NCBI GenBank assembly: GCA_020425695.1
Contig: JAGQRE010000030.1
Location: forward strand, 1 to 33,854
Direction: 5' to 3'
From: Planctomycetota bacterium
GTDB taxonomy: Bacteria; Planctomycetota; UBA8742; UBA2392
DNA: 33,854 nucleotides
The notes under the pieces were generated by a model. That model did no database searches, was not told the DNA's origin, and saw only the letters and a list, made by a program, of their open reading frames with translations. The translations under genes and the position numbers were made by a program. Below are positions 11,568-29,798 of this stretch, piece by piece; the first letter of the stretch is position 1; the number at the start of each line of letters is the position of its first letter.

Positions 11568-12440
11568 TTATGCCGACTCAGCCCATTCCACACATTGCTG
11601 CATCTGGTGCGCGACCTCCGCAACGTCGGCGTGCAGAGGCCAGCCGTGGCCCGGCAGCACCCACTCAAAGCGCTTGGACACAAGCCTTTTGAGCGATTCG
11701 ACCACCGTGTCCCAATCATACCAACAGGCTGACCGAAAAGCGTACAGATGCCCAAGGCGCTGCGACCACGCCAGGTGATCGCCCGTGAACAGGAACTTGT
11801 CGTCGTAAAGCAGACAGGCCGAGCCACGCGTGTGCCCGGGCGTGGGGATGACGGTCAGGCCATTTGCGATTTCGTATTCGTCATCGCCCTTCAGTTTGGT
11901 TTCGGCCTCTATGCCGCGTGCGTCACTTTCCATGATGATTCGCTCACAGCCGAACTTCGCGGCCCACTTGGCATGGTCGGCCACGTCGTCGCGATGGGTG
12001 AGAAACATCCAGCGAATGCCGCCAAGCTGTTCGATTCGCTTCACCAGCGGTGCGGCGAAACGTGGCGAGTCCACCAGCACATTGCCGTCGTCGTGCTTGA
12101 TGAAATAGCTGGCCGCGCCGAAACTGCTCTCGCTGTGGAAGCCGCATTGATGCACGCCGTCAGCCAGCTCATGGGGGAAGCTCGCAGCAGCGTGTTTCAA
12201 GCCGGCCCGCGATGCAGGTTCCGTCACGCCAATACTGGCAGTCGGGCATGCCACAACCGCTCGCAAGGCTGCGGTACGCTGGGCGTCATTGCCGGGCTGA
12301 CGGTACACGGCGGACATACCGCCTTGCGCGTTGAAAACGTCCGGGGCCATCCAGCGGCAGGTAGCACAATCGATGCAGCTTGAATCGACATAAAAGTCGC
12401 CGTCCGCGTTTTCCCTGCGCCTCAGCTTCTGGTTGGCCAT
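11568..12440 (-). CDS. Ferredoxin / metallo-beta-lactamase-fold fusion protein
   Basis: 290 aa. Residues about 12-72 form a small ferredoxin-like domain with C22-x2-C25-x2-C28 and a later C65-P, enough for one [4Fe-4S] cluster. Residues about 95-285 are a metallo-beta-lactamase-fold hydrolase with T-H-R-D-D-V-A-D-H (148-156), P-T-P-G-H-T-R-G-S (199-207), F-T-G-D-H (218-222) and V-L-P-G-H-G (261-266). The first motif lacks the second His of the canonical T-H-x-H-x-D-H, so the metal site is altered; I recall this variant from related ferredoxin-MBL proteins. The substrate is unknown and a redox or thiol-linked role is plausible. It lies 42 nt downstream of the histidine phosphatase gene on the same strand and is probably co-transcribed. 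Confidence 0.88.
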   Translation of the reverse strand: MANQKLRRRENADGDFYVDSSCIDCATCRWMAPDVFNAQGGMSAVYRQPGNDAQRTAALRAVVACPTASIGVTEPASRAGLKHAAASFPHELADGVHQCGFHSESSFGAASYFIKHDDGNVLVDSPRFAAPLVKRIEQLGGIRWMFLTHRDDVADHAKWAAKFGCERIIMESDARGIEAETKLKGDDEYEIANGLTVIPTPGHTRGSACLLYDDKFLFTGDHLAWSQRLGHLYAFRSACWYDWDTVVESLKRLVSKRFEWVLPGHGWPLHADVAEVAHQMQQCVEWAESA

Positions 12441-21349: not shown

Positions 21350-21437
21350 GGCCGAGTGGCGGAATGGCAGACGCAGGGGACTTAAAATCCCTTGGGGGTT
21401 ATCCCCCGTGCGGGTTCGAGTCCCGCCTCGGCCACCA
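21350..21437 (+). tRNA. tRNA-Leu (anticodon UAA)
   Basis: The acceptor stem GGCCGAG (21350-21356) pairs with CTCGGCC (21427-21433), followed by discriminator A and an encoded CCA (21435-21437). The anticodon loop CTTAAAA gives anticodon TAA. A long variable arm (GGGGGTTATCCCCC) marks a class II tRNA, and the T arm is GCGGG-TTCGAGT-CCCGC. It reads UUA codons. Confidence 0.96.
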
Positions 21438-21500: not shown

Positions 21501-22325
21501 TTAGCCGACTAGTTGGCGCAGCAACCTTGCCGAGTATCGGTTTGTGCATGGCTCCGGTGCGCTGTAGGCGGCTGTGGACTCCGGTTGCGCTGCGGTTCTC
21601 GTCAGGTCAATGCGAATCAGCGGGGCGGCATTGGCATCAGTTGACGTGTCAAGTTGTGCCAAGACCGTCAGACCTTGCGCGGGCAGTTCGCGCTTGAAGC
21701 GCAGTTGCCCGATGCGGCAGACGTCATGGGACTCACAGGCCTCACGCAGTGGTTTTGTCGTGCGCAACAGCACTTCGTCGAGTTCGCTGTCCGTCAGTCC
21801 GTGCTCGTTTGCGAACTCGTGAGTAATGGCGGGGATGAAAAGCCGGCCGCCCATGGTTGCGAATGCGACGGGGCGTGTTGCTGCACTGCGTCCGGTCTCT
21901 GCCAGGGCGCGTGTAACGGCATCCGATGCGGTTGCGAGCCCGGCGATGGCGGAGACTGCCAGTTCCGCGACGTGTTCACACAAGTCAGGTCCGGCCTCCA
22001 GCGTGCTGAGCAGGCGTGCGATGTTTCGCTTTGCTTCGAGGCGCATGTCGGAAGCCAACTCGGGTGACGACGCCATGCGCTGGACCAGCAGTAACTCAAG
22101 GCGATGCAGGCGGCATTCAACGGCTGAGCGTACGACGCCGCGGGCGTGCCATTCACGAGAATCACCCGGCAGGCTGTTTACCACCGCGCGTAGAACGCCT
22201 GAGGCGATGTCCGCAACGGACTTCGCACGACGAATCACGCGTGCAGCATGGAGGATGTCATCCACCTGGTAGTCTTCGTGGTGTTCATCCGGTTGTTCAA
22301 ACGGTGGCTCAAACGGTGGCATCAT
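21501..22325 (-). CDS. Unknown protein, fourth gene of the Phc-like signalling operon
   Basis: 274 aa, soluble. The N-terminus is acidic and His/Pro-rich (about 1-20). A helical Ala/Arg/Leu-rich body spans about 22-165, and a more mixed part (V-A-F-A-T-M-G-G-R-L-F-I-P, then C-x4-C near 205) leads to a C-terminal segment with alternating hydrophobic residues. I recognise no domain. Its start codon overlaps the stop of the PhcQ-like gene (ATGA, 22322-22325), so translation is coupled and a role with the upstream regulators is likely. It could be an output effector or a scaffold. It is the last gene before the convergent tRNA. Confidence 0.7.
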   Translation of the reverse strand: MMPPFEPPFEQPDEHHEDYQVDDILHAARVIRRAKSVADIASGVLRAVVNSLPGDSREWHARGVVRSAVECRLHRLELLLVQRMASSPELASDMRLEAKRNIARLLSTLEAGPDLCEHVAELAVSAIAGLATASDAVTRALAETGRSAATRPVAFATMGGRLFIPAITHEFANEHGLTDSELDEVLLRTTKPLREACESHDVCRIGQLRFKRELPAQGLTVLAQLDTSTDANAAPLIRIDLTRTAAQPESTAAYSAPEPCTNRYSARLLRQLVG

Positions 22326-23572
22326 TGCGGGCTCGTCTGTGAGTTCAGTTGCTGCAGCTCGAACATGTCAAACACATCGTCCAGGAAGTTCGGGTTCGTT
22401 GGCGGCCTTTCCGCTGCCAGGGGGTCGTTCGGAAGCGTCAGCTCGATACGCGGCTGTGCGCCCTTCGCGATCAACCCTATGTCTCCGCCGTGGTGGTTTG
22501 CCACGAAGAAGGCTGACAGAACCTCCAGCCCGCCATCCTTTACGTCGCTGGAACTTGGAGTTAACGCAGTGAAGAGTGTTTCGCTTCCCAACTGCTTCCA
22601 GGCTTCTCCGTCGCCGCTGATCGTCAGTTTCACGCCGGGGGTGCCCCAGACGGCCTGCGGGCCTTCAAGCTTGAGTTGGATCGTCCCTCGGTCTTCGTTC
22701 AGCGCGACCGCCTTGCGAAGGAGAATGTCGAGCATGCGGTCGCTGAGTTCGCGGTTGACCTTCAACTCTGCCAGGTCGCCATCGGGATCGAACTCAATCT
22801 TGCACTCGCCGGTATTGGCGCGCTCGATGGCGGACTTCACGAGGTCTGCGGGCGCGACGAAGCTCTCAAATTTCTCGTTCGGCTTTACGACGATTGAACT
22901 GACATTTTCAACCAGTTTCAGCACGCGCTTGCTTTCAACCTGGGCCGATTGCCATACGTCCTGCCAGTAGCTTGGGTCGCGTAGCGTGCCCTGGCTGACT
23001 TCAGCCTCGAGCTTTTCGGGCATCAGGTCAAGGAAAGTCTTCAGTGCCGACATTGAGTTGCGTATGTGGTGGGACAGCCCGGCAGCCAGCACAGCGAGGC
23101 TGCGGATGCGATCAGACACCATCATGCGTTGCAGGACACTCAGCTTTTCGCGCAGCAGGCTGTCGCGCTGGCGCTGAACGATGAAAAAATCCATGGCCCG
23201 CAGCAGCACGCCTCGCAAGTCGCGAACGTCCCACGGTTTCACGATGTACTTGTAGATCGCGCCGGAGTTCACGCCTTCAATGGCGCTGTCGAGGTCGGAG
23301 TAGGCGGTCGTCAGCACGCGGATGATGCCGGGGTAGTCGGTGCGTGCACTGGCTAGCAGGTCTGTGCCGCGTTCACCGGGCATGCGCTGGTCGCACACCA
23401 GGATGCCGATGCGGTCAGCCTGTTCGGCCAATATCTTTCGGGCTTCTTCGACATTCTCGGCGGTCAATATTTCGAAGTCCTTTTCGAGCGCTTTGCGGAA
23501 GTACTTCAGCGCCTGGGCTTCGTCATCAACGTAGAGGATGGTGAATTGCCGATAGTCGTGGTTCGTGACCAT
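22322..23572 (-). CDS. Response regulator with degenerate histidine-kinase output (PhcQ-like)
   Basis: 416 aa, cytoplasmic. Residues about 10-125 are a complete receiver: acidic D16, D17, E18, phospho-acceptor D61 (V-C-D-Q-R-M-P), T88 and K112 (V-K-P-W). A helix leads to a dimerisation-like helix with G-L-S-H-H-I-R-N-S-M (165-174), where H168 stands at the phosphorylatable position and the next residue is His instead of Glu. The ATPase part (about 230-395) lacks a clear N-box and G-boxes, so kinase activity is doubtful. The ATG abuts the stop of the upstream hybrid kinase gene with no gap. Position and domain content match PhcQ of the phcBSRQ operon, but similarity was not computed. Confidence 0.85.
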   Translation of the reverse strand: MVTNHDYRQFTILYVDDEAQALKYFRKALEKDFEILTAENVEEARKILAEQADRIGILVCDQRMPGERGTDLLASARTDYPGIIRVLTTAYSDLDSAIEGVNSGAIYKYIVKPWDVRDLRGVLLRAMDFFIVQRQRDSLLREKLSVLQRMMVSDRIRSLAVLAAGLSHHIRNSMSALKTFLDLMPEKLEAEVSQGTLRDPSYWQDVWQSAQVESKRVLKLVENVSSIVVKPNEKFESFVAPADLVKSAIERANTGECKIEFDPDGDLAELKVNRELSDRMLDILLRKAVALNEDRGTIQLKLEGPQAVWGTPGVKLTISGDGEAWKQLGSETLFTALTPSSSDVKDGGLEVLSAFFVANHHGGDIGLIAKGAQPRIELTLPNDPLAAERPPTNPNFLDDVFDMFELQQLNSQTSPQ

Positions 23573-26206
23573 CTATGCTTGCTCCTGACTCGTGAATGGT
23601 AAATCGAAGGTGACCTCGGTCCAATGGTCTGGCTCGCTCTCGATGCGTAAGTCACTGCCGTGGTTCTTGACGATGGTGTGACAGATACTCAGCCCCAACC
23701 CCATGCCCTCGCCGGGTTCGCCGGTGGTGTAGAAGGGGTCGAAGACGTTCTTCAAAGCCTCTTTGGCGATTCCGATACCGTTGTCACGTATGAGAATCCG
23801 GGCTCGCCCGTTGTTGTCGCACGCGGACACGAGAATTTTTCTCGCGCGATCGTCCTTGACCTTGCTGGTGGCCTTGGCGGCGTTGGTTAGCAGGTTGATC
23901 AGCACTTGCACAACCTGGTTCTGTGCGCCGTAGACGCTGAGCCCCGGCGCAACCTGCTGTTCGATCTCACAGTCTTTGAGCTCGTGCCCGGCGAGGCGAA
24001 GCGACACCTCGATGGATTTGGCCAAGTCGAACTGTGTCTTGTTGGCGGCGCGCTCGGGGTAGGCGAACGAGCGCAGGTCGGAAACGATGTCACGAATTCG
24101 CGCCATGCCGCCTTCGATGTCCGTCAGGGTTTCGTGCAGGTCTGTGTTGCCTTCCGGTACATCTCCCTGGGCGATCTGGATGGCGGTCATTGTGAAATTC
24201 AACGGGTTGTTGATTTCGTGCAGCAGCCCGGCCGACAGAGTGCCAAGGGCGTTGATCTTTTCACTCTGGATCAACTGTGCCTCAGTCTGGCGCAACGTTC
24301 GAATGGTGGTTTCCAGCTTGCGGTTGGTGCTGCGAAGGCGGTCTTCAAGCTCCGAGGCCTGCATCAGGTTCTTTAGTCTTGTTCTGACTTCGAGGGTACT
24401 GAAGGGCTTTGTAAGGAAGTCATTGGCGCCGCGCTGCAATGCACCAAGTTTGGCGTCTTCGTCCGTGCGGGCGGTCAGGAGAACGATCTTCAGTGACTCC
24501 AGCCCTTCGGTTTCGCGCAGCTTGGCGCATAAGTCGAGCCCATCCATGCCCGGCAGCATCAAGTCGAGCAAGGCGAGCGTTGGCTTCTCTCGTACAGCCA
24601 GCTCATACCCCTTTAAGCCGTCGGCTGCCTGGACGATGCGGTAGTCACGCGACAGGAAACTGGTCAAGAAACGCCTCATGTCGGGCTCGTCTTCGACCAG
24701 CAACAGAGTCCGATCGCCTTCGCCCACAACAGGCAATTCGTCGACGGAGTTCTCATCGTCGGCAACCACGACGCTGCGCCGGGCGTCTCGATGAACGTCA
24801 GACAGCGCGTCATGTGCCTCGGGCGCTGTGACGTCACCGGCGAGGTCTCCGACCGGTAGCTCGACTCGCATGACCGTACCGCGCTGTAACTCGCTGGTGG
24901 CGGTCAGCTTGCCCTCGTGTGCCTCAACGAGATCTCGGGAAAGTGCCAGTCCGATGCCGACGCCTGAGTATTTGCGCGTGCTGGAAGAGTCGAGTTGTCC
25001 GAAGCGGTCAAAGATCCGCGGCAGATCCGTCGCAGCGATGCCGATGCCTGAGTCCTTGATCTCGATGACGGCCCGGTTTCCTTCGCGGCTCAGTTCAACG
25101 TCGATGCTGCCGCCGGCAGGCGTAAATTTGACGGCGTTGGTCAGCAGATTCAGCAACACTTTTTCGATAGCGTTTGAATCAACCCGGCAAACAAGTTCAG
25201 TGTCCGGGACGTGAACGTTGAGTTTGAGACCCTTGATTTTTGCAAGGTGCGAAGCCGAGTTGATAACGCCGGGCACGAGCATCCCGAGGTTCTCGTGACT
25301 GAAGCTTAGCTCCGCGTCGCGCTCTTCAAGGCGCACGAGATCAAGCAGGTCATTGATCAGACGCAGCAAGCGCAGCGCGTTGTCCCGCGCGATGCGAAGC
25401 GTGTCATCAAGAGACGCCTTGCCTGTGCCGCCTTCTTTCAGGACGTCCTGTAGCGGCGCGATGATGAGCGTCAGCGGCGTACGAAGTTCATGGCTGACGT
25501 TGGCGAAGAACTGGGATTTCAGGCGATCGAGCTCGGCCAGTTTCTCATAGGACTGCGCGAGTTCGTCATTCTGCTCACTCATCTGGTGGCGCAGGCGATA
25601 GTCCTGAAACCGCAGCTTGGAGAGGAAGAAGCTCGCAGTGGAAGTGATTACGGCGGTCGTGAGGATGAAGTAGAGGTTGTTGAAAAACGAATCCAAGGGG
25701 AACTTCAGCGGGGCCTTCAGTTGTTCAATCTGTGCAGCCTTTTCTTTCTGATCTGCTGTGAAGTTCTCTGGCGCCGTATCTGCCAACTCCGTTTCAAAGT
25801 CGGAAATTGTGCTAATGACGGCTTGTCTTTTGTCTGCGACTTGCTGTGGCGGAGCCCACTGGTGGGCTACACCGGCAGCTACGAACATCAACAAAGTTAG
25901 TGCGCAGGTGGTTAACACTTCGACCAAAGTCCACGGCATCAGCAGGCTGACGGCGATGATGACGAGGTTCAACCCGGCATAGTACGGCGAAAAAGCACCC
26001 TGCGTGTACCAGATCATCCAGGAGATGCTGGCAGCGGGCAGTAGTGCCCATGCGATACCCAGGAACCTGACGTGCTTTTCGCCGAACTGTGTGAACAACA
26101 GACCGAGGATCACCAGAACGGCCACGTCACAAATCATCCGGCTGGCAAACAGTGCGCCTAGATGCTCCGGGTAGACGAACCAGTCCAGGCTGATGCCGGC
26201 CGGCAT
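23573..26206 (-). CDS. Membrane hybrid sensor kinase with two kinase cores (PhcS-PhcR-like fusion)
   Basis: 877 aa from the first ATG. Order: membrane region of about five helices (1-115), a loop (115-170), one more helix (about 175-195), HisKA with H239 (N-V-S-H-E-L-R-T-P), HATPase (N-L-L-T-N-A near 353, D-S-G-I-G-I near 385, G-V-G-I-G-L-A near 415), receiver (E505, D506, phospho-acceptor D548, K600), second HisKA with H663 (L-L-H-E-I-N-N-P), second HATPase (N-L-L-T-N-A-A-K-A, D-N-G-I-G-I, G-M-G-L-G-L-S). Both kinase cores look complete. In Ralstonia, PhcS is a membrane kinase and PhcR a receiver plus kinase, so this reads as the two fused. The frame stays open upstream to 26350 and encodes the rest of helix 1, so the true start is probably further upstream (see findings). 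Confidence 0.9.
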   Translation of the reverse strand: MPAGISLDWFVYPEHLGALFASRMICDVAVLVILGLLFTQFGEKHVRFLGIAWALLPAASISWMIWYTQGAFSPYYAGLNLVIIAVSLLMPWTLVEVLTTCALTLLMFVAAGVAHQWAPPQQVADKRQAVISTISDFETELADTAPENFTADQKEKAAQIEQLKAPLKFPLDSFFNNLYFILTTAVITSTASFFLSKLRFQDYRLRHQMSEQNDELAQSYEKLAELDRLKSQFFANVSHELRTPLTLIIAPLQDVLKEGGTGKASLDDTLRIARDNALRLLRLINDLLDLVRLEERDAELSFSHENLGMLVPGVINSASHLAKIKGLKLNVHVPDTELVCRVDSNAIEKVLLNLLTNAVKFTPAGGSIDVELSREGNRAVIEIKDSGIGIAATDLPRIFDRFGQLDSSSTRKYSGVGIGLALSRDLVEAHEGKLTATSELQRGTVMRVELPVGDLAGDVTAPEAHDALSDVHRDARRSVVVADDENSVDELPVVGEGDRTLLLVEDEPDMRRFLTSFLSRDYRIVQAADGLKGYELAVREKPTLALLDLMLPGMDGLDLCAKLRETEGLESLKIVLLTARTDEDAKLGALQRGANDFLTKPFSTLEVRTRLKNLMQASELEDRLRSTNRKLETTIRTLRQTEAQLIQSEKINALGTLSAGLLHEINNPLNFTMTAIQIAQGDVPEGNTDLHETLTDIEGGMARIRDIVSDLRSFAYPERAANKTQFDLAKSIEVSLRLAGHELKDCEIEQQVAPGLSVYGAQNQVVQVLINLLTNAAKATSKVKDDRARKILVSACDNNGRARILIRDNGIGIAKEALKNVFDPFYTTGEPGEGMGLGLSICHTIVKNHGSDLRIESEPDHWTEVTFDLPFTSQEQA

Positions 26207-26306
26207 CAGGACCAGAGCAAGTACGCAGCCGATACGCGAATGCAGAACACGCTGGCGACGGTCCGTCTCCAGGTATGCGAGGTTTACTTCAGGCTTGCCC
26301 GTTAGT

Positions 26307-27710
26307 TCAGCCAGCGGTTTTCTCCGGCTTGTCGGCCACCAGATACACGTTCACACCCGTTGAATCTGTTGAAATCTGGGGCTTCCATTCGCTGGGTACC
26401 AAGGCCGCGAACTGGTCGTCGTTTCGATAGATCAGGTACCACTCAAGAATGTGTTCCATGAACAGGCGAATCGGGTTGTTCGCATGCACGTTGGTTGTTG
26501 CCACGCGACCGCCAGGTTTCGCCCAATGATAGAACAACCGCAACAAGCGCTTGCAGATGCGATCCGAAAGATAGTCGAACAGCCCCGCACAGAACACCAG
26601 ATCCCATTGCTCGTCCGGTTCTTCGTCTTTGCTGGATTCACGCAGCAGGTCGTGAATCGACTTGTGGATGAAGTTCAGGTTTGGGTGTCGTTTGCTTTCG
26701 ACACAGGCTGTCTGCAGGCGTGATCGCGTGTATTCAAGCGTTTCTTCATTGAAGTCGAGCAACGAGAATTCCGCACGCTCACTGCCCGGCACGTCACGGA
26801 TAAAACGCTCAGTTTCGCGCGCGGGGCCGCAGCCGATATTCAGCACCTTGAACCGGCGCCCGGCCGCAGTCGCCTTTGCCAGTTCGTGCTTCAACAGATC
26901 AACGAGGAAGTCGATACGGTTTCTGTGCGCCTCGGCTGGTTCACGGGCGAGCACGAACGAGTTCACGATCCGCGAGTAGATGTTCGGTCCTTCCGCGCTG
27001 TTGCGCAGAATCATGTTCACCATCTCGTAGTCACCGGCATAGCCGAGAGGCTTGGTGTACGTCCGGTGCACGAATGGCGAAATCAGCATCAGCGGGTGCA
27101 GCTCGCGCTGTGCGAAGGCCTTGTGCTGGACTTCTTCCTCGGGTGCGATTTGCGCTGCGACTTCCTCAAAGCGTCCGAAAAGCTCGAAGATCTTGGGTGT
27201 CAATGAGTGTTGCAGGCTGGCCAGCGTGTCTGGGTCCGGGTCGGTCCGGTGCCCTTCCGAGTTTGTGGACTCAGCCTCTAACTGCTCTACCCAGCGGCTT
27301 AGCTCAGACAGGAACGAGTTAATGGTCGTGACTGACAGTTGATACTGCGGCTGCAGGTCGTGGCTGGACTCCCAGTCCGACACGAACTCGTGCACTTCGC
27401 GCTCAAGCTGCGCGCCTGCAGGTACGCCCAGCAGGTCGGTCCACGCATCAACGAGCGTCGCGGAGACAATCAGCATCAGTCCCGTGGACACGAGGTTGCT
27501 TACGACAGCGCGTCCCGAATAGATCACGCGCTCGCCGCGCAGGACTCGAAACTCGCCGAGAACTTCGCTTAGCTGGACGATTGAGTACGGGTTGTATACT
27601 TCAAAAACAACCATGTTGCGCGTCAGGTGGACGAGCGTGCCGGTTGCTTTGACGCCTTGGGAGTTCTTGAAGGCGACGAGGCTTTCAATTCTGCGAGTGG
27701 TGCGATCCAA
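26307..27710 (-). CDS. PhcB-like SAM-dependent methyltransferase with N-terminal PilZ-like domain
   Basis: 467 aa, no signal peptide or membrane helix. Residues about 1-95 form a beta-rich, PilZ-like module without an obvious c-di-GMP motif. A helical linker (100-200) leads to the K-P-L-G-Y-A-G-D-Y-E-M-V-N-M segment (220-233), which I associate with PhcB-type proteins. The Rossmann methyltransferase then has V-L-N-I-G-C-G-P-A-R (289-298), acidic D319 and F-C-A-G-L-F-D-Y-L (373-381). PhcB of Ralstonia makes the quorum signal 3-hydroxy fatty acid methyl ester, and this protein may methylate a 3-hydroxy fatty acid. The TTG start is fixed by GAGG 7 nt upstream. It heads an operon with the PhcS/R- and PhcQ-like genes, stopping near the start of the kinase gene. 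Confidence 0.85.
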   Translation of the reverse strand: MDRTTRRIESLVAFKNSQGVKATGTLVHLTRNMVVFEVYNPYSIVQLSEVLGEFRVLRGERVIYSGRAVVSNLVSTGLMLIVSATLVDAWTDLLGVPAGAQLEREVHEFVSDWESSHDLQPQYQLSVTTINSFLSELSRWVEQLEAESTNSEGHRTDPDPDTLASLQHSLTPKIFELFGRFEEVAAQIAPEEEVQHKAFAQRELHPLMLISPFVHRTYTKPLGYAGDYEMVNMILRNSAEGPNIYSRIVNSFVLAREPAEAHRNRIDFLVDLLKHELAKATAAGRRFKVLNIGCGPARETERFIRDVPGSERAEFSLLDFNEETLEYTRSRLQTACVESKRHPNLNFIHKSIHDLLRESSKDEEPDEQWDLVFCAGLFDYLSDRICKRLLRLFYHWAKPGGRVATTNVHANNPIRLFMEHILEWYLIYRNDDQFAALVPSEWKPQISTDSTGVNVYLVADKPEKTAG

Positions 27711-27721: not shown

Positions 27722-27773
27722 AAGTGTCACTGCAGGCAAATGCCACGATTGCACAATGTTAACACGTGCGTCT

Positions 27774-27968: not shown

Positions 27969-28841
27969 TCAGCTTCCGATGGCTGACTCGAGAGCTTCTT
28001 TCAGAGTGTCGTAGTCGAAAGAGAAGCCCAGAGATCGTGTCCGTGACGGAAGCACCTTCTGCCCGTTAAGCAGCATGTCGGCCATCTCACCGTACAGTAG
28101 ACGCAGGGCGAAACCCGGGACCGGCAGCGAAACCGGGCGGTGGACAGCCTTGGCCAGCGTCTTTGTGAACTTGCGGTTAGTGACGGGGTTTAGCGCGGAC
28201 CCGTTCAGGGGGCCGCGTACGTCGTTATTCTCAAGTGCCCAGATGAACAGCCGAACGATGTCATCGAGGTGAATCCACGACCAGTACTGCCGCCCGCTGC
28301 CGAGTCGTCCCCCGAGAAACCACTTAAAGATCGGCAACATCGCGCCAAGTGCGCCACCGCTGTGGTGCAGTACGACGCCCGTGCGTACGAGTGCGACCCT
28401 GAGTTTGTCTGACGCGGCGGCGGCTTCCCACTGGATGCAGATGTCAGCCAGGAAGTCGCTTCCCGGCGCTGAATCCTCGGTGCAGGCTTCTTCTCCGCGA
28501 TCACCGTAGTAGCCGATCGCGCTGCTGCTGATGAACGCCGTGGCGCCTCGCTCTTCAGCGGCCTTGCGAAGTGTCTCGGTAGCTCTGACGCGGCTTTCGA
28601 CCAGTACCTTCTTGTACTTGCTAGTCCAGCGCTGATCGAGCGATGCCCCTGCCAGGTTGATCACGCCGTCGAAAGCGTCAGGCAGTGCGTCAATGGAACA
28701 CGCAGCGGGCTTGTCGCCAAACATGCGTCCCACTTTCGCGGGAGTGCGTGAAACGACAGTCACGGAATGCCCAAGCGCGAGCAGGCGTTCGACGAGGGGT
28801 TTACCAATGAATCCGGTTCCACCGGAGACAAGTACGTGCAT
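27969..28841 (-). CDS. TIGR01777-family NAD(P)-dependent epimerase/oxidoreductase
   Basis: 290 aa, cytoplasmic. The N-terminal Rossmann motif is G-G-T-G-F-I-G (7-13). The extended-SDR features are N-L-A-G-A (about 62-66), S-S-S-A-I-G-Y-Y-G with the Y-Y-G-D signature, and the C-terminal R-x-x-P segment (L-P-S-R-T-R-S-L-G-F-S-F) typical of YfcH/SDR39U1 proteins. The physiological substrate is unknown. GGAG lies 6 nt upstream of the ATG on the - strand. It is divergent from the esterase gene (72-nt gap) and probably monocistronic. Confidence 0.92.
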   Translation of the reverse strand: MHVLVSGGTGFIGKPLVERLLALGHSVTVVSRTPAKVGRMFGDKPAACSIDALPDAFDGVINLAGASLDQRWTSKYKKVLVESRVRATETLRKAAEERGATAFISSSAIGYYGDRGEEACTEDSAPGSDFLADICIQWEAAAASDKLRVALVRTGVVLHHSGGALGAMLPIFKWFLGGRLGSGRQYWSWIHLDDIVRLFIWALENNDVRGPLNGSALNPVTNRKFTKTLAKAVHRPVSLPVPGFALRLLYGEMADMLLNGQKVLPSRTRSLGFSFDYDTLKEALESAIGS

Positions 28842-28913
28842 CAGTTACTCCGTTGCGGGGAGCATTTGTTTATCATGCCCGCGCATTTGGGGGCAGGTTA
28901 CAGGAGAGACAAC

Positions 28914-29798
28914 GTGGTCGTACGCAGTTTGATTCCGCTGGCAGCCGTCTTCATGCTGGGGCTTGGCTTGTCGGGCTGTCGCTTGCCCGTCAGCGAACGC
29001 CTTGAGCACACCGGCGGAGAAGTCAGCAACTACAACTTCACCCTCGACTACGAGGTGTGGCTTCCACAGGGCTACGACGAGAGCCCTGAACGGACCTACC
29101 CATTGTTGGTCTGGTTCCACGGCGGCGGTGACAACGAGCTGAGCTGGGGGCGTGAAGGCAAGATCGGCGAAATCGTTCAAGACCGTGTAACAAAGGGCGA
29201 GCTGCAACCGTTTATCGTGGTCAGCCCAAGTGCCGGCACATTCACGCCGGTGTTCCGTACATATGAACGATTACTGCTCGAGAACGTGCTTCCCGACGTG
29301 AAGCAAAAGTACCGAACCAACGGCGAGATCGTCGCCTTCGGGCATTCCATGGGCGGGCTGAGCGCGCTGATGGTAACTCTGCGGCACCCTGATCTGTTCG
29401 ACGCCACGGTCGCGGCCAGCCCCTTCGGTTTTGATTCAACGCCATGGGATACGCCTGAGCAAAAGCAGGCCTACGGCGAGAAGTACGGCGACACCTTCCT
29501 GCGACAGTACCGCTACCAGCTTGAGAAGAATTTCAACTCGCGAGAAGAGTACGACGAGTGGGCGCCGTTTAGCCTGGTGCGAAGAGACGGGATGGATCGA
29601 CCAAAGAACTTGCTGCTGACCATCGGCGATAAAGACCCGCTTGGCTTGTACCCGCACGTCAAACTGTTGCACGACGTGATGCTCGAAAACGGCGTCGAGC
29701 ACGAGTGGTATGTGCAGGAGGGAGTGGGTCACGGCACGGTCGAAGACCCGCGCCTGATGGACTGGCTGAGTGAACACGTAACGGACGGATCAAAGTGA
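28914..29798 (+). CDS. Alpha/beta-hydrolase (esterase) lipoprotein
   Basis: 294 aa. The frame is open from 28767, but the GTG at 28914 is chosen because AGGAG (28902-28906) precedes it by 7 nt and it opens a lipoprotein signal with lipobox L-S-G-C and Cys22. The mature protein is a putative-esterase-type alpha/beta hydrolase: oxyanion region W-F-H-G-G-G (67-72), nucleophile elbow G-H-S-M-G-G with S145, likely acid D241 (G-D-K-D-P) and base H273 (G-V-G-H-G). It would hydrolyse ester bonds at the outer membrane or in the periplasm; the substrate is unknown. Its last codon overlaps the start of the Nudix gene (GTGA), so the two are co-translated. Confidence 0.9.
   Translation: MVVRSLIPLAAVFMLGLGLSGCRLPVSERLEHTGGEVSNYNFTLDYEVWLPQGYDESPERTYPLLVWFHGGGDNELSWGREGKIGEIVQDRVTKGELQPFIVVSPSAGTFTPVFRTYERLLLENVLPDVKQKYRTNGEIVAFGHSMGGLSALMVTLRHPDLFDATVAASPFGFDSTPWDTPEQKQAYGEKYGDTFLRQYRYQLEKNFNSREEYDEWAPFSLVRRDGMDRPKNLLLTIGDKDPLGLYPHVKLLHDVMLENGVEHEWYVQEGVGHGTVEDPRLMDWLSEHVTDGSK

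Follow-up and report, generated by a model that had tools for sequence, protein, structure and literature searches.

Does a bacterium from outside the Betaproteobacteria carry the Phc quorum-sensing operon of Ralstonia and, if so, in what form? The question is raised by a leftward four-gene operon at positions 21501-27710 of the window, that is, of the whole 33,854-nucleotide stretch of DNA analysed here (contig JAGQRE010000030.1 of the Planctomycetota assembly GCA_020425695.1), for which an earlier note, made from the letters alone, had proposed Phc-like signalling by fatty-acid esters. Judged by homology, the operon is a rebuilt Phc system: PhcB, the PhcS sensor, the PhcS kinase and the PhcQ receiver all have homologous counterparts in a layout that recurs in other genomes. 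Production and sensing of a fatty-acid ester signal in its planctomycete host are the likely role of the operon, and we infer the identity of that signal from the homology.

The cited articles are drawn on here for parts of their text. A 2026 review assigns the Phc system to the Ralstonia solanacearum complex (PMC13220807), a Ralstonia paper calls it genus-specific (PMC8578825) and two Cupriavidus genome papers carry the operon name. No publication treating phcB and planctomycetes together was found in the literature outside subscription papers and preprints. Planctomycetes, quorum sensing and 3-hydroxypalmitic acid methyl ester co-occur in one article (PMC8875677), in which, as far as its available text goes, planctomycetes appear only for acyl-homoserine lactone (AHL) lactonases.

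Operon layout and the PhcB-family methyltransferase

Four leftward open reading frames (ORFs) occupy the locus at the positions described earlier, and their Pfam content is as had been claimed: a methyltransferase domain in gene 1, two HisKA/HATPase pairs around one Response_reg in gene 2, a Response_reg and a HisKA without HATPase in gene 3, and no domain in gene 4. With the starts as called, 100 bases separate genes 1 and 2. Genes 2 and 3 directly abut and genes 3 and 4 share 4 bases, and a single transcript of genes 1-4 is therefore likely. The order of genes 1-3 is not due to chance, because it is the same in seven other planctomycete loci and, up to the contig end, in an eighth. Upstream of the methyltransferase gene lies a short block (27742-27763) that appears by eye to be conserved in genome G005 and less so in G004, a candidate promoter element. 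The host assembly is 4.1 Mb in size and 88.7% complete, and close database relatives of the operon proteins are labelled Planctomycetes where named, in line with the earlier impression that the host is not a betaproteobacterium.

Gene 1 is 45.9% identical over 455 residues to PhcB of R. pickettii, with the Methyltransf_25 domain at residues 289-401 and a structure predicted by AlphaFold2 (AF2) at pLDDT 84.4. The R. pickettii reference locus, checked by Pfam, encodes a methyltransferase, a kinase, a receiver-kinase and a receiver in this order, preceded by a further receiver protein at the position of phcX, which agrees with the published Ralstonia order phcX-phcBSRQ (PMC10653808). In a tree of 50 rows, 45 PhcB-type rows, including that of the window, split from five generic methyltransferases (support 100/97), and the window's row joins its three nearest rows in a clade (98/93) separate from the betaproteobacterial one; the tree gave long-branch warnings for the outgroups and the row of genome G058. 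By alignment and tree, gene 1 is thus a full-length PhcB-family methyltransferase, as the earlier note had proposed when it set grouping with PhcB beforehand as a test.

Among 7995 candidates scored, 5877 proteins matched gene 1 at E <= 0.001, its own entry included, and many source names among the 120 matches listed read 'extracellular factor (EF) 3-hydroxypalmitic acid methyl ester biosynthesis protein'. Since databases already give many such proteins that name, the PhcB label itself is not new. The claim of a system outside its described hosts holds for the phylum in the literature covered.

The hybrid receptor and its PhcQ-like partner

Alignments and trees indicate that gene 2 encodes a PhcS carrying an insertion: a PhcS-type sensor joined to a PhcS-type kinase, with an unrelated kinase-receiver module between them. 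In a two-sequence comparison its sensor is 27% identical to that of PhcS (E 1e-27), including the stretch ISWMI..T.GA.SPYY.GLNL, and in an alignment with ten betaproteobacterial and eight other planctomycete sensors the SPYYxGLNL region is largely conserved. A simple scan found five hydrophobic segments in this sensor and five in the corresponding region of R. pickettii PhcS. Kinase 2 is 41% identical to the PhcS kinase over 271 residues and clusters with it in the domain tree (98/99), a tree in which kinase 1 stands apart from the PhcS and PhcR kinases (90/71) and the inserted receiver falls outside the group of PhcR and PhcQ receivers (100/100). Kinase 1 was again apart from kinase 2 and PhcS in a smaller tree (100/100). 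Neither part of the inserted module clusters with a Phc domain. The key residues of the two kinases and of the receiver were picked by eye and then assigned to positions; the domains are given independently by Pfam.

The true start of gene 2 is probably non-standard and upstream of 26206. The frame is open to an upstream stop (from 26350) and congeners share a conserved DRRQRV...GC segment in this stretch, yet in the window no ATG, GTG or TTG lies in this frame between that stop and 26206. In the congener G005 the sole TTG lies farther upstream, within the methyltransferase gene and ahead of the conserved segment, and CTG or another rare start is therefore possible.

Gene 3 is, by sequence, a relative of PhcQ with a degenerate kinase tail and not a PhcR. 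It is 40% identical to PhcQ over 230 residues, and its receiver clusters with PhcQ and not with PhcR in the domain tree (80/99). The tail, in which it differs from PhcQ, has a weak HisKA match and no HATPase match in Pfam, and a simple pattern search found neither N box nor G box in it. No DNA-binding domain was matched in gene 3. Ralstonia PhcQ stabilises PhcA, to which it binds (PMC13320629); given the lack of a DNA-binding match and of ATP-binding motifs, the output of the PhcQ-like regulator is likely by protein-protein contact too, by analogy with PhcQ on PhcA but with another target.

A PhcR-type kinase is absent from every operon gene. The correspondence to phcBSRQ drawn in the earlier note therefore holds for PhcB, an S-type and a Q-type protein in that order, but not for PhcR: the extra kinase and receiver are built into the PhcS protein and show no grouping with PhcR, and gene 3 matches PhcQ best. 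The window shares with Ralstonia the whole length of PhcB, the PhcS sensor and kinase, the PhcQ receiver and the order B-S-Q. It differs in the inserted kinase-receiver module, the missing PhcR, the degenerate kinase tail of gene 3 and an additional gene 4, and neither PhcA nor PhcX is visible.

For PhcA, this agrees with what had been noted earlier. Two proteins in the host assembly have a LysR ligand domain, one nearest to YeiE (below the cut-off of that equivalog and above that of the PRK10837 subfamily) and the other nearest to NhaR, below its cut-off. PhcA was sought only as LysR proteins and without a PhcA reference sequence, and may have been missed because the assembly is only 88.7% complete; the operon probably works without it. 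A Ralstonia PhcX query gave just one short receiver match (E 3e-4).

The closest comparison for the receptor architecture is the LvrA/LvrB pair of Leptospira, which likewise has a kinase-receiver-kinase protein adjoining a receiver-kinase protein and no DNA-binding domain (PMC5863495). The NCBIfam LvrA model is the best match of gene 2, but far below its cut-off (318 against 1200 bits), and covers it just from residue 203 on, behind the sensor. LvrA is cytoplasmic with a PAS sensor and LvrB has a complete kinase, whereas gene 2 has five hydrophobic segments and no PAS match in Pfam and is thus not a soluble hybrid kinase of that type; a synthase is not mentioned in the text portions examined. 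LvrA passes phosphate both to its own receiver and to LvrB, which is a measured precedent for a hybrid relay (PMC5863495).

Table 1. Features of the operon and its edge, with positions in the window and the basis of each assignment.
Feature	Position	Strand	Basis
PhcB-family S-adenosylmethionine (SAM)-dependent methyltransferase, 467 amino acids, predicted signal synthase (gene 1)	26307..27710	-	Pfam Methyltransf_25; R. pickettii PhcB match; tree; AF2
Hybrid PhcS-like membrane kinase, 877 amino acids as called (gene 2)	23573..26206	-	frame open upstream to 26350, conserved there
PhcS-type membrane sensor domain, SPYYxGLNL motif (residues 73-81)	25562..26206	-	27% identity to PhcS sensor; alignment
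Inserted kinase 1, HisKA/HATPase, phospho-acceptor H239	24842..25540	-	Pfam; trees
Inserted receiver domain, phospho-acceptor D548	24362..24709	-	Pfam; tree
Kinase 2, PhcS type, phospho-acceptor H663	23588..24292	-	identity to PhcS; tree
PhcQ-like response regulator, degenerate kinase tail, 416 amino acids, receiver D61 (gene 3)	22322..23572	-	pairwise match; tree
Protein of unknown function, 274 amino acids, operon end, seen only in close relatives (gene 4)	21501..22325	-	database relatives; Pfam; fold match
tRNA-Leu(UAA) at cassette edge; also in operon-free relatives with flanking genes	21350..21437	+	

Recurrence, distribution and genomic site

Recurrent linkage, the other test set beforehand, was assessed in 89 loci besides the window, in which ORFs on the PhcB strand within 7 kb were labelled by their best match to domains of the window and R. 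pickettii. Of these loci, 81 are betaproteobacterial (the best 80 of one genome scan with a Cupriavidus-led query, and one plasmid). Synthase and sensor occur together throughout, with a PhcS-type sensor ORF as the next labelled kind after PhcB in 89/89 loci, and a looser form of the sensor motif is present in 83 of the 91 sensor ORFs. All 81 betaproteobacterial loci have the order B, S, Q. PhcR has both receiver and kinase in 59 of them, is spread over two frames in 8, consists of the receiver alone in 10 and is lacking in 4. The last four make the missing PhcR of the window less than decisive. Loci that lack the PhcR kinase or the whole of PhcR (e.g. in Janthinobacterium and Paraburkholderia) share this feature with the window but differ in that their PhcS is a simple sensor kinase.

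In all eight other planctomycete loci PhcB is followed by a hybrid sensor-kinase-receiver-kinase, and the seven uncut ones continue with a PhcQ-like gene; in G156 the contig ends after the receiver, so that kinase 2 and PhcQ are out of view. Pfam confirmed the kinase-receiver-kinase order in five hybrids beyond the window, one of them from genome G351. G279 (L106:6830-8970) has a second PhcQ-like receiver gene and an ORF of 313 amino acids directly upstream of PhcB.

Within the phylum the system is rare. Among 60 genomes of near kin and other planctomycetes, 11 had a match to gene 1 at E <= 0.001, the weaker ones being distant methyltransferases. At E <= 1e-60, PhcB was found in 9 of 392 planctomycete genomes, namely that of the window, three of the five congeners searched and five elsewhere in the phylum, and all nine carry the sensor. 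The sensor domain was detected at E <= 1e-4 in 19 of 384 genomes, and the ten below 1e-15 are the nine with PhcB and G351. This one-contig assembly, rated 95% complete, has a hybrid PhcS-like kinase and a PhcQ-like gene side by side (L140:5968-9577) and no PhcB match at E <= 0.001, and is possibly a listener without a signal of its own. Five of the nine genomes with weaker sensors (E 4e-9 to 9e-5) were searched for PhcB, which gave distant methyltransferases in three and no match in two.

The operon of the window sits between tRNA-Leu(UAA) and a TIGR01777 epimerase gene, at a site where a block is present or absent and its contents vary: empty, operon, or operon with other genes. In G003, of the same genus, and G006, of another genus of the family, the flanking genes are adjacent with the tRNA between them and no operon. 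The G005 site resembles that of the window, and in G004 the operon is separated from the tRNA by about 3 kb with other genes. In the 19 kb examined of G001, neither the tRNA nor the aldolase-like gene was detected; in G002 both are present, and the 19.9 kb examined there yielded no epimerase gene. In the window no repeat of the tRNA end was found, and no integrase was noticed beside the tRNA. The empty site of G003 (L114:6404-6730) contains, by eye, repeated copies of the palindrome GGGGACTGTCCCC and a repeated unit of about 40 bases. An esterase-like alpha/beta hydrolase near the operon (28767-29798) is probably unrelated to it, as the empty sites of G003 and G006 have this hydrolase too.

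Gene 4 is possibly an accessory particular to this lineage. It has five database relatives besides its own entry (38-66% identical), no Pfam family and a weak PAS-like fold match in its C-terminal half, and it is present in all three congeneric loci examined. No match was found in G058, G112, G320 or G279, and the G156 contig ends too early to tell. With these five close relatives as its only ones, gene 4 was rejected as a Phc protein. Elsewhere in the window, positions 11568-12440 encode a 290-amino-acid protein that combines a single-cluster ferredoxin domain with a metallo-beta-lactamase-fold domain.

Competing explanations and wider meaning

We consider it fairly probable that the locus is a planctomycete Phc-type operon, with a PhcB-family synthase of a hydroxy-fatty-acid methyl ester, a PhcS-type hybrid sensor and a PhcQ-type relay, probably without PhcA. 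In such a circuit, the ester made by gene 1 would build up with cell density and bind the PhcS-type sensor, and binding would switch kinase 1. Kinase 1 would phosphorylate D548 of the internal receiver, which would gate kinase 2, and kinase 2 (H663) would phosphorylate the PhcQ-like regulator at D61. The regulator would pass the signal on through protein-protein contact with a target other than PhcA.

Several points weigh against this interpretation. We infer the ester chemistry, and the substrate evidence for PhcB-family enzymes covered here is confined to Ralstonia. The analysis turned up no output protein of the planctomycete system, the search for PhcA was limited to LysR proteins of an assembly 88.7% complete, and PhcR is missing. 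Gene 3 also matches PhcR (39% over 170 residues), and the support for its PhcQ grouping is moderate (80/99). The sensor motif is missing in 8 of the 91 sensor ORFs, all betaproteobacterial and two of them from one locus. Long-branch warnings were given for the methyltransferase tree, the domain tree and the smaller kinase tree, and in the last of these the kinase 2/PhcS group took in one unrelated kinase whose branch is very long; a tree uniting the 18 kinase 2 and PhcS rows without it was not rejected (p value of the approximately unbiased test, p-AU, 0.305). Finally, the system is patchy (9/392 genomes), with PhcB missing from two of the five congeners searched (86-88% complete) and from all ten genomes of other genera in the family.

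The same homologous circuit might instead use a different methyl ester, one with a changed or branched acyl chain or with an acid other than a 3-hydroxy acid, and so follow the Phc design with a signal other than that of Ralstonia. A sensor just 27% identical to PhcS and the long branch of the betaproteobacterial PhcB proteins speak for this, but the 77 alignment positions that are invariant over 19 PhcB rows of both groups and the largely conserved SPYYxGLNL region make it, in our view, unlikely. We hold it to be quite improbable that the operon monitors the lipid or membrane state of the cell itself, through a membrane lipid modified by the methyltransferase and read by the kinase, with no signal between cells. 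In favour of this, Pfam found none of the four genes to be for export or import and the ligand would be membrane-soluble, but the homologous Ralstonia operon is a quorum system, and the presence of sensor and PhcQ in G351, where no synthase was detected, agrees with the sensing of a signal from outside. Both methyltransferases and kinases abound, and the domains given by Pfam alone are generic, but an ordinary methyltransferase beside an unrelated two-component operon is hardly credible given the linkage in 89/89 loci, the PhcB grouping and the joint presence in genomes.

Returning to the planctomycete Phc-type operon, a more far-reaching view, which we put forward tentatively and regard as rather doubtful, is that ester quorum sensing is an old cross-phylum system. 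Planctomycetes would use it with a two-kinase hybrid receptor and a PhcQ-type regulator without PhcA, some as receptor-only listeners, and Ralstonia PhcS would be a stripped form that lost the kinase-receiver module. With a conserved synthase-sensor-PhcQ core in another phylum, in a different receptor build and with PhcA not visible, it becomes possible to ask which parts make up the signalling core. The planctomycete version likewise opens the questions of what PhcQ does without PhcA and of whether planctomycetes may talk to, or overhear, soil betaproteobacteria by means of ester signals.

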